From an uncultured Aquimarina sp. (GTDB lineage: Bacteria > Bacteroidota > Bacteroidia > Flavobacteriales > Flavobacteriaceae), in contig CANLYR010000004.1 in the NCBI GenBank assembly GCA_947495425.1, positions 111,013-175,012 on the forward strand: 64,000 nt of DNA, in the 5' to 3' direction. Both the position numbers and the translations under genes were made by a program. Shown here piece after piece: positions 47,828 through 52,880 of this stretch (positions within the stretch are counted from its first letter, which is position 1; each line of letters opens with the position of its first letter). The notes beneath the pieces are model-generated. The model did not search any database. It worked only from the letters and a program-made list of their open reading frames with translations, and was not told where the DNA came from.

Positions 47828-48649
47828 ATGAAAATTCATGAAACCGCTTTTATAGTATCTACTTACAGGTCTCATTATAAAGAAGTAAGCAAAGATTGCT
47901 ATGCACAATTATGGAATAATTCGGACACAGATGCATTAATAGCTGATATTTTGAAAAGTGTTTCTGCGCATGAAGCTATTTTGCATAGCATAAGAAACCG
48001 TTTCTTCTATGAAAAAATGAATGCTTTTTTTGGTAAAAACAATGGGGGTACATTGATCAATTTTGGATCTGGGTTTAGCATGTACCAATTTTCTTTTAGC
48101 AATAACGTTTCAACAATAGAAATAGATAAAAAAGGTATCATATCCTACAAAAAAGAAAAAGTTGATCATTGGATAAAAACAGGTGAATTACCTCATCGTG
48201 ATATTCAATACACGGCAATCGATTTTAATGCAAATACCGCTGCTGAAATTGTGGTAATGCTACAGCCTATGATTACGAAACAACCCACATTTATTTTAAT
48301 AGAAGGTGTTTTATTTTTTCTAAATAGAGAAATTACAAATACGCTATTCTCTGTTTTTAATCAACTACAAAAATCAAGGGATTTGCTAGGTGCAGTAACG
48401 TATTTACCAGAAGTTGAGCAAACCCCAGTTTATAAGCGATTATTGCATTATTTTGACAGTAATAATGATACTAATGACTCTTTTTTACATCAAACTCTGC
48501 CAAATTCTTATTTATCTAAGGTAAAAGGATATAAAGTAAAGGAAAACACCGACGAATTTGAGTTATCAAAAATATATGCTCCAAAACATAAAATCAGAAA
48601 TAAACTAGATATTCTTAACGAAACCATGTACATTTTAGAAAAAACCTAA
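47828..48649 (+). CDS. Class I SAM-dependent methyltransferase (LCM-like)
   Basis: 273 residues. The start is MKIHETAFIVSTYRSHYKEV, and it has LINFGSGFSMYQFSF with a loose SAM-binding Gly block, TIEIDKKGIISYKKEKV, and FILIEGVLFFLNREITNTLF, a hallmark of leucine carboxyl methyltransferase-like proteins. These methylate carboxyls or small molecules. It converges on a gene 3 bases inside its end (opposite strand). No partner is visible. Confidence 0.72.
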   Translation: MKIHETAFIVSTYRSHYKEVSKDCYAQLWNNSDTDALIADILKSVSAHEAILHSIRNRFFYEKMNAFFGKNNGGTLINFGSGFSMYQFSFSNNVSTIEIDKKGIISYKKEKVDHWIKTGELPHRDIQYTAIDFNANTAAEIVVMLQPMITKQPTFILIEGVLFFLNREITNTLFSVFNQLQKSRDLLGAVTYLPEVEQTPVYKRLLHYFDSNNDTNDSFLHQTLPNSYLSKVKGYKVKENTDEFELSKIYAPKHKIRNKLDILNETMYILEKT

Positions 48650-48864
48650 AATCCAGACAACAATGCCCCACAAATCCCCAAACCAACCACAAGGTAGACT
48701 CCTGCAAGAATAAAAAAAACTTTTCCAGCCTTTCGACTAGCACTACGAAATAGAATGAAACCAATAATTGCCAGAAAAATTGGAGGTCCGAGAAGAATTA
48801 ACAGAATAACATAAACTATCCCATCTAGATTGCCCGGCTCGAGTATAATTAAGTTTGATATCAT
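48646..48864 (-). CDS. Small two-helix membrane protein of the Lgt-like/radical SAM operon
   Basis: 72 residues with two membrane segments (VYVILLILLGPPIFLAIIGF, VFFILAGVYLVVGLGICG) and a basic loop RSASRKAGK. Its ATG overlaps the stop of the radical SAM gene (ATGA) so it is translationally coupled to it. Without the operon context it would be a plain hypothetical protein. No domain is recognised. It may hold the enzyme at the membrane; inferred from coupling only. Confidence 0.75.
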   Translation of the reverse strand: MISNLIILEPGNLDGIVYVILLILLGPPIFLAIIGFILFRSASRKAGKVFFILAGVYLVVGLGICGALLSGF

Positions 48865-50255
48865 AAGACTTCGGTTCTTAAGTGTTCTAAATATGCTTGC
48901 TTATCATCCCTATAAAATAAATTCATAGTTTCAAAAGGAATGATTTTATAATCTTTATTTACAATATGCACACAAGATTTTTTAATAGCTCGCACATCAA
49001 AGTTATAGGCATCAATAAATTGCATGATAATAATGCGAAACAAATTATCATACCCCAAATCAGGTGCATCAATTTCGGGAAGACAACACATGATAGATTT
49101 CAAATTTTCTGAAGCTGTTTCTACAGAATTTCCAGTACTAAACAATTCAAGGACTTTACCATGCAACTCAGCATCCTGTTCATAAACAATAGTATTTTTA
49201 CCATTATCCAATAAATCAGACGGATTAATATAACGTGTTAGCGGCATAATACCCGCTTCATTTTTTAATGCATACCCCATCACCAACGCATCAGGGTTAC
49301 AGGGTACCGGAATTAGATCATCGGCTTCAAAAACCGGAAATTGCTCTACTATTTTTCTACGCACTTCTGTGAGTGTGATCCTATTGGTTTGCGTATCAAA
49401 ATCTTCTAATCTTCCTGCTATTTGTGTGGGCTGAAACGTGACTCCTCTAACACACTTTTGCTGAGTAGCAAACGAAATTATATCCCCCATCTCCTCATCA
49501 TTAAGTCCTTTCTCTAGAGTTACAACCAACGTTGTCGATAAATTAAATTGATTGAGATGCGCTATCGCTTGTTTTCTGACTTTGGTAAGGTCTTCTCCTC
49601 GTAATTTTTCTAGCACTTCTGCTTTTAAAGAATCGAATTGCAGATAAATTTCAAAATCTGGCATATAACTCGCCAATCGCTCTACAAATTTAATATCCTT
49701 TGCGATACGCACACCATTAGTATTGACCATTAGATGTCGAATCGGTAGTTGCTTGGCATACTCTAAGATTTCAAAAAACTGAGGATGTATTGTGGGTTCT
49801 CCTCCACTAATTTGAACCACGTCTGGTTCTTTCTCATTTTCTACAATCGTATCCAACATCTTTTTAATTTCATCTAACGTGCGATGTCTTCCATAGTGCG
49901 GAGACGAAGAAGCATAACAGGTCGGGCAAGTAAGATTACATCGATCAGTAACTTCTATAATCGTCAAACAAGAATGCTGCTCATGATCAGGGCATAATCC
50001 ACAATCATACGGGCATCCATAATCTGTAGTCGTATTAAACTTATAGGGAAACTCTGAGGGTTTATTGTAATTTCTAATATTTTTATAATATTCAATATCA
50101 TCGGCGATAAGTACTTTTGATCTGCCGTGATCAGGACATCGCTTCAGCATAAATACTTTATCGTCTTCAAAAACGATTTTAGCATCAATTCTTTTTAAAC
50201 AGGTTGGACATAAACTGAGTGTAAAATCGTAATACGTATAGTTTCTAACGGGCAT
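48861..50255 (-). CDS. Radical SAM protein with extra Cys clusters (MJ0619/Tes-like)
   Basis: 464 residues. The radical SAM cluster is C106-x3-C110-x2-C113 in DRCNLTCPTCY, then QISGGEPTIHPQF. Before it lie a rubredoxin-like set (C16, C19, C40 in CPTC and KRCPDHG) and a second CX3CX2C, C81-C85-C88, in GCPYDCGLCPDHEQHSC. That layout matches class D radical SAM methylase MJ0619 and tetraether synthase Tes, which carries several clusters and a rubredoxin-type iron. A pair of Cys (MCCLPEIDAP) sits near the C-terminus. The gene overlaps an Lgt-like gene by 11 bases. I infer action on a lipid. Substrate unknown. Confidence 0.85.
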   Translation of the reverse strand: MPVRNYTYYDFTLSLCPTCLKRIDAKIVFEDDKVFMLKRCPDHGRSKVLIADDIEYYKNIRNYNKPSEFPYKFNTTTDYGCPYDCGLCPDHEQHSCLTIIEVTDRCNLTCPTCYASSSPHYGRHRTLDEIKKMLDTIVENEKEPDVVQISGGEPTIHPQFFEILEYAKQLPIRHLMVNTNGVRIAKDIKFVERLASYMPDFEIYLQFDSLKAEVLEKLRGEDLTKVRKQAIAHLNQFNLSTTLVVTLEKGLNDEEMGDIISFATQQKCVRGVTFQPTQIAGRLEDFDTQTNRITLTEVRRKIVEQFPVFEADDLIPVPCNPDALVMGYALKNEAGIMPLTRYINPSDLLDNGKNTIVYEQDAELHGKVLELFSTGNSVETASENLKSIMCCLPEIDAPDLGYDNLFRIIIMQFIDAYNFDVRAIKKSCVHIVNKDYKIIPFETMNLFYRDDKQAYLEHLRTEVL

Positions 50256-50985
50256 AAAAGAGTTTTCGAATAGTTTTTTGATAGTAAATTAAGCATAAGA
50301 TACATAAATACTGAATACTACTTAATCCAAAAATTAAAAAAACATTGGGTTTTAAAAATTCTATTATAAAACGAAACGAAAAATATGAGATCATAAAGTA
50401 CTGAAACAGGCGCCCGCTTTCAAGTACATTTTTCTTTAGGAAATGTTTCAGAAATATCCACAAAACAATCAAAAAAACAATTTCGAATAAAGCCAATGGG
50501 TACCGTAATACTCCATCTCCCAAATCCATTCCTAAAAATGAGGTTGTAATTTTTCCATATGTAAATTCATTAATTCCGGCCAAAAAACACCCAACCCTAC
50601 CTACTATAATTCCCAAAATGATTGGAAACGTAAATAAGTCGCCAGAAGAATGCTTTTCGTTAATAATTTTCTTAGCAATCTCTACCCCAAGAAGACCTCC
50701 AAAAAGACCACCCATAATAGTTTTGGCATTTAGCACTTGCAGCAAATATTCTGGAGTGAAAGAGAATACAGGATTTTCTAAAAAACCAACCCATCGAGAC
50801 CCAAAAAAAGCACCAAAAACTGCTCCTATAATGATGGATAATCGATTACCTGAAGAAATCAGATCCTGTGTATTCTTCTTGAGATACACATAATATCGAA
50901 ATCCAATAAAAAATGCGGCATACTCTAAAACCAAATGGATATTCACTTTTATACCAAAAACAATAGGTTCAAAAGGAATATCCAT
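50245..50985 (-). CDS. Lgt-like (prolipoprotein diacylglyceryl transferase family) membrane protein
   Basis: 246 residues with about seven membrane segments. The Lgt signature is seen as GRVGCFLAGINEFTYGKIT, then GMDLGDGVLRYPLALFE. However the essential His of E. coli Lgt (H103, in HGG) is Met here (IMGGLFGGLLGVE). So it is unlikely to be the true lipoprotein Lgt, which should exist elsewhere. Lgt binds phosphatidylglycerol, so this relative may handle a phospholipid. It starts the operon with the radical SAM gene overlapping its end. Confidence 0.82.
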   Translation of the reverse strand: MDIPFEPIVFGIKVNIHLVLEYAAFFIGFRYYVYLKKNTQDLISSGNRLSIIIGAVFGAFFGSRWVGFLENPVFSFTPEYLLQVLNAKTIMGGLFGGLLGVEIAKKIINEKHSSGDLFTFPIILGIIVGRVGCFLAGINEFTYGKITTSFLGMDLGDGVLRYPLALFEIVFLIVLWIFLKHFLKKNVLESGRLFQYFMISYFSFRFIIEFLKPNVFLIFGLSSIQYLCILCLIYYQKTIRKLFYAR

Positions 50986-51026: not shown

Positions 51027-52880
51027 TTACTGCATTGCTTTTGCCATCACATGATAACGTGGATCATCTACATCATGTTCTATTACATTAGCTAACCTAG
51101 GCGAAGCTTTGATCATTAGGGCCTGGCATTCTTCGCTAAGGTGTTTAATCCTTACCTTTTTGCCTGCTTCTTCATACCTACCTACCAAATTGAAGATCGC
51201 TTCTAGTGCAGAATGATCGCTAACGCGGGATTCTATAAAATCGATCTCTACAGACTCCGGATCATTAGCCACATCAAATTTATTATTGAAAGCCTGTATA
51301 CTTCCGAAGAAAAGAGGTCCCCATATCTCGTATACTTTGGTTCCATCATCTTTGATATGTTTTCGTGCTCGTATTTTTTTAGCATTTTCCCAGGCAAACG
51401 CTAGTGCCGACATAATTACTCCGGCAATTACCGCCACTGCGAGGTCAAAAAATACTGTTAATGAAGATACTGCTATTAATACAATAGCATCGGTACGTGG
51501 TATTTTATTTAAAATTCTAAAACTCGACCATGCAAAGGTTCCGATCACTACCATAAACATTACACCAACCAGAGCCGCAATAGGCACTTGTTCTATTAAT
51601 CCAGAGGCAAATAAGATAAATAGCAATAGTGTTACTGCTGCTACAATACCTGATAATCGTGTACGACCACCTCCCTTGATGTTAATAATAGATTGCCCGA
51701 TCATGGCACAACCACCCATACCCCCAAAAAGACCTGTAACTATATTGGCGCCTCCTTGTGCTAAACATTCTCTATTAGAATTACCTCTCGTCTCAGTTAA
51801 CTCATCAATAAGGTTTAATGTCATCAACGATTCTATTAATCCGATGGCAGCCAATATTAATGCATAAGGTGCTATAAATGTGAAGGTCGCCCATGTGAAG
51901 GGTACTTTATTAAAAATATCGAATTGAAATTGAGGTAATCCTCCCTTTAGCCCTTCTCCACCGCCATCTCTAATAAAACTACCTACGGTGGCAACGTCTA
52001 GTTTACCAAGAATCACTATAGCAGATACAACCACAATTCCTATCAATGCCTCTGGTAATTTGGCAGTAGCTTTAAGCTTAGGTAATCCCCACATGATCGC
52101 CATGGTTAGTAGTACCAAACCTAACATCAATAATAACTGAGTAGTAGAAATCCACCTTTTGACCTTTCCTTTCTTTTGAATGCTATAAATCGCCTTCTCT
52201 TTATCATTATAATTAAAAAGCAACTCCTGAGATATCAAATCAAAAACCTGACCATCATGAATGATATATTTTCCCTCTTCAGAAGTTAAATCTTCTATTC
52301 TATTGTCTGCAAAATTGAATAAGGCAACGCCTGTTGTAGCATCGTAGACTTTGTTATCCTCTCTTATTTCGAATTTTTTATCTATTGAGGTTGTCACATA
52401 TTTATCGTTACCAAATACATCTTTAACCCCTTCTTTAAACATCCCTAATTGAGAAAGAAAAATTACAATGGCTAGTCCATTTACGAACCCCATCATTACT
52501 GGATGTGGGATCAAGCGCACAAATTTACCAAGCTTGAATACCCCGGCCAGCATTTGAATTACTCCCATAAAAATAACCGTTGCAAAAAGATAATACAATC
52601 CAAGTTCTTCTCCTGGAGCACCCATAGCATTTCCTTCTGCTACAAGGCTTACCATGACCACGGCTAATGCTCCTGTTGCACCAGAAATCATTCCCGGACG
52701 TCCTCCAAAAACAGAAGTAATCAATCCAATCATAAACGCAGCATACAATCCAACTAATGGATCCACACCCGCTACAAAAGCAAAGGCAACAGCCTCAGGA
52801 ACTAAAGCCAACGCAACCGTCAACCCGGATAAAATATCATTTTTGGCATTTGCCACTCTTTTTCTTACAAACTCCGTCAT
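51027..52880 (-). CDS. SulP family anion transporter with a large soluble insertion
   Basis: 617 residues. The SulP core begins NDILSGLTVALALVPEAVAFAFVAG, and the STAS domain (GPLFFGSIQAFNNKF, DFIESRVSDHSALEAIFNL) ends it. Between about residues 149 and 242 a hydrophilic region with no clear membrane helix interrupts the barrel after FLSQLGM. It repeats the pattern VYD.TTGVALFNF and VFD.ISQELLFNY, suggesting two small beta units. SulP proteins carry sulfate, bicarbonate or dicarboxylates; the substrate is not known. The gene is alone. Confidence 0.93.
   Translation of the reverse strand: MTEFVRKRVANAKNDILSGLTVALALVPEAVAFAFVAGVDPLVGLYAAFMIGLITSVFGGRPGMISGATGALAVVMVSLVAEGNAMGAPGEELGLYYLFATVIFMGVIQMLAGVFKLGKFVRLIPHPVMMGFVNGLAIVIFLSQLGMFKEGVKDVFGNDKYVTTSIDKKFEIREDNKVYDATTGVALFNFADNRIEDLTSEEGKYIIHDGQVFDLISQELLFNYNDKEKAIYSIQKKGKVKRWISTTQLLLMLGLVLLTMAIMWGLPKLKATAKLPEALIGIVVVSAIVILGKLDVATVGSFIRDGGGEGLKGGLPQFQFDIFNKVPFTWATFTFIAPYALILAAIGLIESLMTLNLIDELTETRGNSNRECLAQGGANIVTGLFGGMGGCAMIGQSIINIKGGGRTRLSGIVAAVTLLLFILFASGLIEQVPIAALVGVMFMVVIGTFAWSSFRILNKIPRTDAIVLIAVSSLTVFFDLAVAVIAGVIMSALAFAWENAKKIRARKHIKDDGTKVYEIWGPLFFGSIQAFNNKFDVANDPESVEIDFIESRVSDHSALEAIFNLVGRYEEAGKKVRIKHLSEECQALMIKASPRLANVIEHDVDDPRYHVMAKAMQ

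Follow-up and report, generated by a model that had tools for sequence, protein, structure and literature searches.

Results

The window analysed here is a stretch of 64,000 nucleotides from an uncultured Aquimarina sp. (GenBank assembly GCA_947495425.1, contig CANLYR010000004.1, positions 111,013 to 175,012). It holds a cassette of three genes on the minus strand, coding in this order for a divergent relative of the prolipoprotein diacylglyceryl transferase Lgt, a radical SAM protein resembling the archaeal tetraether lipid synthase Tes (GDGT-MAS, MJ0619), and a small membrane protein with a cysteine close to its C-terminus (Table 1). A check of the open reading frames (ORFs) reproduced the overlaps of 11 and 4 bases reported in the initial annotation. 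The closest named relatives of the radical SAM protein are Aquimarina proteins, with up to 93% identity.

Table 1. Genes of the cassette and their diagnostic sites (positions in the window).
Feature	Position	Strand	Remarks
Lgt-like membrane protein	50245-50985	-	246 residues; divergent PF01790 subfamily
His17 codon	50935-50937	-	His in 85/96 Lgt-like proteins, Tyr in 10/96
Met91 codon	50713-50715	-	at E. coli Lgt His103
Arg130 codon	50596-50598	-	E. coli R143, phospholipid site; 96/96
Cys133 codon	50587-50589	-	E. coli N146; Cys in 96/96
Arg205 codon	50371-50373	-	E. coli R239, phospholipid site; 96/96
Tes-like radical SAM protein	48861-50255	-	464 residues; no membrane helix
Rubredoxin-like site C16-x2-C19-x20-C40-x2-H43	50127-50210	-	spacing as Tes C9x2C12x20C33x2H36 (passages of PMC9433317)
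N-terminal auxiliary cluster site C81-x3-C85-x2-C88 with H91	49983-50015	-	102/103 each, the remaining one a gap
Radical SAM cluster CX3CX2C (C106, C110, C113)	49917-49940	-	PF04055; 102/103 each, the remaining one a gap
C-terminal Cys set C319, C390-C391, C428	48972-49301	-	differs from Tes; C428 and C319 are the range ends
Small membrane partner protein	48646-48864	-	72 residues; two hydrophobic stretches, basic loop between
Cys65 codon	48670-48672	-	8th residue from end; invariant C-terminal cysteine

The three genes form a real unit, as had been supposed initially, and this unit is widely conserved in Bacteroidota genomes and beyond. In 296 genomes of the phylum, a close radical SAM relative (E<1e-100) was found in 24 and a close Lgt-like relative (E<1e-27) in 25; all 24 are shared (hypergeometric 2e-34), and the grouping of the two genes is beyond chance. 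In 22 of the 24 genomes the two genes share a strand and are no more than 1.3 kb apart. A more distant radical SAM relative was found in two genomes, once with an adjacent Lgt-like gene (G096) and once without one beside it (G066). Family clustering of 29 loci recovered the radical SAM protein in 24, the Lgt-like protein in 23 and, at a crude threshold, the small protein in 6. A relative of Chlorobaculum headed a scan of named genomes that gave 567 loci, the best 80 of which were examined. These 80 include Bacilli, Cyanobacteria, Bacteroidota, Chlorobi, Ignavibacteria, Clostridia, Elusimicrobia, Coriobacteriia, Spirochaetia, Planctomycetes, Proteobacteria and others, together with two metagenome-assembled genomes (MAGs) labelled marine group II archaea. 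An Lgt-like gene lies at most 3.3 kb from the radical SAM gene and on the same strand in 70 of the 80, and eight of the ten misses are contig ends on the expected side (L066, L069, L074, L079, L083, L104, L136, L138). A radical SAM gene occurring mostly without the Lgt-like gene had been named at the outset as the pattern that would speak against a joint system; what is found is a radical SAM gene mostly in its company (24 of 24 close relatives, 70 of the best 80 loci).

Two layouts recur. Layout I, found in the window, has the order Lgt-like, radical SAM, small protein, with variants in which the small gene stands between the other two (L050-L053) or the partner lies upstream of the Lgt-like gene (L114, L115, L141). 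Layout II reads radical SAM, isoprenylcysteine methyltransferase (ICMT)-like, DUF4395, Lgt-like, small protein; the two additional genes are present in 8 of the 80 loci, all of this layout (L065, L067, L068, L070-L073, L075). ICMT acts on lipidated cysteines in eukaryotes, and its relative in layout II therefore fits the cysteine theme of the cassette.

The radical SAM protein resembles Tes over its whole fold and at three of the four metal sites, namely the rubredoxin-like, the N-terminal auxiliary and the SAM cluster motifs (E 4.6e-70 against Tes, ~30% identity). The Tes counterpart of the auxiliary site is C73/C77/C80 with a conserved His (passages of PMC9433317). All three Cys sets listed in the initial annotation (C16/C19/C40, C81/C85/C88 and C106/C110/C113) are nearly invariant in 103 aligned relatives, the rubredoxin-like residues being kept in 101 (C16 and C19), 102 (C40) and 98 (H43). 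The same annotation had placed this layout in MJ0619-type methylases and in Tes. The likeness to Tes holds, while these are not two separate proteins, the MJ0619 “methylase” being Tes itself; passages of PMC9433317 state that the pterin-methylase annotation of MJ0619 could not be corroborated. In contrast to the shared sites, the C-terminal residues of Tes are not kept: S427 and E442 stand at positions of Tes Cys and I431 at Tyr459, in a numbering shifted by 20 for extra residues of the chain and read from a pairwise alignment, the Tes Cys being compared by position. The protein has C96, C319, C390 and C391 of its own. C319 is conserved in 103, C391 in 92 and C428 in 102 of the 103 relatives, and C390 was seen in a separate alignment (A2). 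In all counts over 103 radical SAM and 96 Lgt-like proteins, L059 and L073 (the same sequence) as well as the identical L042 and L109 were both kept.

Unlike Tes, the protein adjoins an Lgt-like gene and a Cys-tailed partner, and it stays below the cut-off of the Tes model NF045702 (450 bits) with 295.0 bits, as do its relatives L058 (305.7), L076 (298.8), L143 (273.0), L101 (276.4) and the far relative L060 (148.9). Its best NCBIfam score is to the TrsS radical SAM (seleno)protein model NF045646 (335.7 bits), yet this is again below the cut-off of 490, and the relatives stay below it as well (L058 368.5, L076 336.7, L143 310.2, L101 316.6, L060 193); the passage on TrsS in the review PMC13188914 gives no function. 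Two outlying loci may be added. L061 (G066), from the same phylum as the window, passes the Tes cut-off with 493.8 bits, and no Lgt-like or Cys-tailed neighbour was found for it. L060 (G096), with its adjacent Lgt-like gene, is without the N-terminal auxiliary cluster Cys, keeps C96 and C319, and may have a Cys-ended membrane ORF that overlaps the two genes. A role in anti-phage defence was rejected: viperin models alone match, via the common radical SAM core (56.8 bits).

The Lgt-like protein matches Pfam LGT PF01790 with 67.3 bits (gathering score 24.9) and stays below the cut-off of the equivalog TIGR00544 (39.2 against 118.9 bits). For its AlphaFold2 model (pLDDT 93.9), Foldseek returned E. 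coli Lgt (5azb, TMq 0.58) as the sole PDB match at E<=0.001. The GRVGCF motif noted at the outset corresponds to residues 129-134. Equivalents of E. coli G142, R143, G154 and R239 are present in all 96 aligned Lgt-like proteins and of Y235 in 95. R143 and R239 line the lipid site of the E. coli enzyme, and its HGGL motif has been proposed as the binding site of the lipobox peptide (passages of PMC4728403). Of the essential Lgt residues, R143, G154 and R239 are accordingly found in the window protein, whereas H103 (M91) and N146 (C133) are not. The initial annotation was right to place a Met at the essential His; across the 96 relatives this position holds Val (71), Met (18), Leu (3), Thr (2), Ala (1) or Ile (1), and never His. 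The essential Tyr26 is likewise missing, its counterpart being His17 in one alignment and Val19 in another, with His17 two residues off. His17 forms with Glu21 (84/96) a conserved pair in the first helix. Since the lipid-site residues R143/R239 are kept and the lipobox-site His is lost, the residue pattern fits a putative enzyme that keeps the phospholipid donor and takes another acceptor. The window genome carries two more Lgt genes, both with the His103, Asn146 and Tyr26 equivalents. Natural Lgts with Y/W/F at 103 and C at 146 are noted in passages of PMC13251419, among them N146C in L. interrogans Lgt and Y26H plus N146C in MSMEG_5408, which is presumed weakly active.

Two further observations concern this subfamily. 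Locus L063 (G017) holds a member with 49% identity, with no radical SAM protein of this kind found in the genome and no Cys-tailed partner seen beside it. Lgt is stated in passages of PMC13251419 to be absent from archaea; two MAG contigs with a marine group II label (L143, L117) carry PF01790 Lgt-like genes within the cassette, although misbinning of these contigs is possible and their flanking genes are compatible with more than one origin.

The small protein of the window has hydrophobic stretches at residues ~11-43 and 45-72 and matches none of the Pfam and NCBIfam models at E 0.001. It had been described as a two-helix membrane protein, of which the two hydrophobic stretches stand; rather than generic, it belongs to a set of partners that vary around a fixed C-terminal Cys, a feature beyond the initial annotation. 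Cys65 is present in all 120 homologues listed (of 554 at E<=1e-3; the window protein included), 114 of which have no other Cys. The C-terminal Cys is invariant in four alignments (A3, 25 rows; A5, 16; A6, 18; A7, 16), and in the broad set A3 it is, together with the start Met, the sole invariant residue. Partners were also surveyed without asking for a Cys, as membrane ORFs directly downstream of the radical SAM or Lgt-like gene. Of 84 non-redundant ORFs, 75 end in a helix and nine do not (including ICMT genes and ORFs outside the cassette). A Cys lies 2-20 residues from the end in 73 of these 75 helix-ending ORFs versus 18 of 80 helix-ending control ORFs from the same loci.

An automatic scan of 102 loci found a Cys-tailed partner in 90, against 0.10 expected per scanned interval, about ten chance matches being expected among the 90; two of them are doubtful (421 residues in L121, 339 in L075). 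This census omits L069 (no complete radical SAM ORF found), L059 (the sequence of L073) and the far relatives L060 and L061, while the identical L042 and L109 are both counted here too. A stricter scan gave 68 of 102 against 0.014 expected, and the looser one was preferred after the strict scan proved to miss visible partners. One partner was found in 75 loci, two in nine, three in four and four in two. Among the twelve misses, five loci are cut by a contig end, and L123 and L124 show a partner in other scans. The N-terminal parts of the partners vary, with a zinc ribbon in L070, a weaker DUF7577 match in L144 and a B-box in L115, which the N-termini of the L114 and L141 partners resemble; the partners in the two archaeal MAGs have 303 (EF-hand matches just below cut-off) and 360 residues. 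The cysteine commonly sits in the motif [IL]-G-[FL]-[GS]-x-C. Mean net charge is +2.1 before the last helix and +0.15 after the Cys, and because basic charge precedes the last helix, the Cys is predicted to lie at the outer face.

Nearby genes were considered as further members of the cassette. Upstream, a SulP-family permease gene (51027-52880, minus strand) is separated from the cassette by 41 bases and may in this genome be co-transcribed with it. From the other side, a leucine-carboxyl-methyltransferase-like gene (PF04072; 47828-48649, plus strand) runs towards the cassette and has 4 bases in common with the small gene. Both were rejected as members, with no recurrence in the clustering of 29 loci. 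Recurrent in these 29 are an EF4/LepA-like GTPase (8), a short-chain dehydrogenase (8) and a dihydrouridine synthase-like gene (5), names that are our reading of the sequences; we take them for chromosomal neighbours. The eight flavobacterial loci with the GTPase gene near the cassette (L036-L043) perhaps merely share a common chromosomal site.

Discussion

Our analysis demonstrates the co-conservation of the genes, the Tes fold of the radical SAM protein together with three of the four Tes metal sites, the conserved phospholipid arginines and the missing lipobox-site His of the Lgt-like protein, and the invariant partner Cys. From these features we tentatively propose, as our leading explanation, that the Tes-like radical SAM protein remodels lipid tails and that the Lgt-like protein attaches the lipid to the C-terminal Cys of the partner. 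Working from the inner face, the radical SAM protein would, like Tes, use phospholipid tails as its substrate and would join them or alter them in another way. The modified lipid would then reach the outer face, where the Lgt-like protein, by means of its lipid site (R130/R205) and a re-set pocket with the conserved H17, E21 and C133, would move a glyceride to the partner Cys. The suggested orientation of the partner (basic loop, helix, Cys) would repeat the order of a lipoprotein signal peptide, but at the opposite terminus and with no lipobox. The reaction would yield a protein lipidated at its C-terminal end, and the lipid would perhaps be a membrane-spanning one. We prefer the radical SAM reaction first and the transfer second because the radical SAM protein is without a hydrophobic stretch, and is taken as cytosolic, and because the Cys is predicted outside. 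The initial annotation had suggested an enzyme system that modifies a phospholipid or lipid tail. The likeness to lipid enzymes is retained here; a free lipid as product is not, since the fixed C-terminal Cys of an otherwise variable third protein suggests a lipid linked to protein.

Several points weigh against this proposal. The lipid on the partner Cys and both enzyme reactions are predicted, the topology of the partner is read from charge alone, and a cytosolic radical SAM protein together with an outer-face Cys needs the lipid to cross the membrane. The radical SAM reaction may differ from that of Tes because the C-terminal Cys set differs. The Lgt-like protein may not be a classic transferase, since E. 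coli Lgt mutants in H103 and N146 fail complementation (passages of PMC4728403 and PMC13251419). Co-occurrence has exceptions: the two genes lie on separate contigs in G034 and G272, G017 is the odd one among the 25 genomes in having the Lgt-like gene without the radical SAM gene, and no Lgt-like gene was found at L111 (8 kb upstream present) and L102 (5 kb), which are real misses. No partner was found in five loci with room for one (L048, L089, L091, L127, L135). Terminal Cys are also more frequent among short control ORFs (10/24 under 100 residues versus 8/56 longer). Finally, the partner motif is not a lipobox: the strict pattern, which we take to be [LVI][ASTVI][GAS]C, matches 1 of 113 partners, and a relaxed pattern, likewise assumed, 21 of 113.

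Among the alternatives, one would have the small protein as a membrane adaptor or subunit holding the two enzymes, which would act on free phospholipids, the Cys serving as a metal ligand or pairing in a disulfide, for which C133 of the Lgt-like protein is a possible counterpart. Free lipids are the substrates of Tes and, as is held, also of its bacterial analogue Mss (passages of PMC9433317 and PMC13274423), C133 is invariant in the 96 Lgt-like proteins, and close partner copies were found only at the cassette in the genomes scanned. In the window genome no copy was found outside it (best other match E 0.6), 12 further genomes gave cassette copies or matches of E 0.004 and weaker only (two of them none at all), and all 13 partner matches in nine Hymenobacter genomes are at the cassette. 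An adaptor, however, would require neither tandem partners in up to four copies nor an exchange of N-terminal parts (zinc-ribbon, B-box, EF-hand-like) around one kept Cys, which besides the start Met is alone invariant in the broad set; we regard this scenario as somewhat unlikely. Quite improbable, in our view, is a radical SAM protein that acts on the partner like a maturase of ribosomally synthesised and post-translationally modified peptides (RiPPs) and creates a thioether or a different bond at the partner Cys, with the Lgt-like protein binding or carrying the product. A bacterial synthase of membrane-spanning lipids of the branched glycerol dialkyl glycerol tetraether type with incidental neighbours, as proposed by Zeng et al. 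for 456 bacterial Tes homologues (passages of PMC8941075) and in line with the similarity to Tes, is highly improbable, given that the Lgt-like and partner genes are conserved and not incidental, that five of five scored main-clade cassette proteins (window, L058, L076, L101, L143) reach 273-306 bits against the cut-off of 450 and the far relative L060 still less, and that L061, without these neighbours, passes it.

The proposed attachment of lipid to the partner Cys may be compared with known systems. Lgt itself shares with the cassette protein the fold and the G142, R143, G154, R239 and Y235 equivalents; it differs at H103 and N146, and its substrates in the lipobox that the partner is without. 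MYXO-CTERM proteins and myxosortase resemble the partner in having a C-terminal tag with an invariant Cys, for which the authors speculated about Lgt-like lipidation (passages of PMC11980579). In MYXO-CTERM, however, the helix comes after the Cys and the protein ends in an arginine-rich tail, the reverse of the partner order (basic loop, helix, Cys), and the passages of PMC11980579 mention no radical SAM protein. CTERM models matched none of eight partners at E 0.05 (seven without any match, L117 with one weak calcium-binding match), nor the window protein at E 0.001. RiPP-lipoprotein hybrids (DybA) combine a small ribosomal peptide, a dedicated modifying enzyme and a Cys lipidated by Lgt, but they have an N-terminal signal peptide with a canonical lipobox, an ordinary Lgt and a multinuclear iron enzyme (MNIO) instead of a radical SAM protein (passages of PMC12636315). 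Mss, a bacterial membrane-spanning lipid synthase, is alike in that tail-to-tail lipid joining is proposed for it; the word Lgt is absent from the text of PMC13274423 available to us, and Mss is compared here by description, not by sequence.

Conclusions

Searches of the open-licence literature, including the combination of radical SAM, Lgt and tetraether, found no description of the cassette. C-terminal Cys lipidation by an Lgt relative has been speculated before (passages of PMC11980579), with no conserved gene set found tied to it. In many phyla the cassette unites such an enzyme with a likely maker of its lipid and a likely protein substrate, which makes the idea directly testable. There is also a consequence for geochemistry, where bacterial homologues of Tes are regarded as potential sources of membrane-spanning lipids (passages of PMC8941075 and PMC11868695). 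With ~30% identity and E far below 1e-50, the cassette clade likely passes the cut-offs for such homologues while belonging to a protein-linked cassette, and we would guess that the single Tes homologue reported by Zeng et al. from 231 marine group II MAGs (passages of PMC8941075) belongs to this clade as well. In its widest form, which we consider unlikely, the cassette would represent a widespread and unrecognised pathway, in which radical chemistry builds a tail-joined, membrane-spanning lipid that the Lgt-like protein welds to the C-terminal Cys of dedicated proteins. These would thereby gain a covalent anchor across the whole membrane, and the role of the “Tes homologues” of this clade, in bacteria as well as in marine group II archaea, would lie in the anchoring of proteins and not in tetraether membranes.

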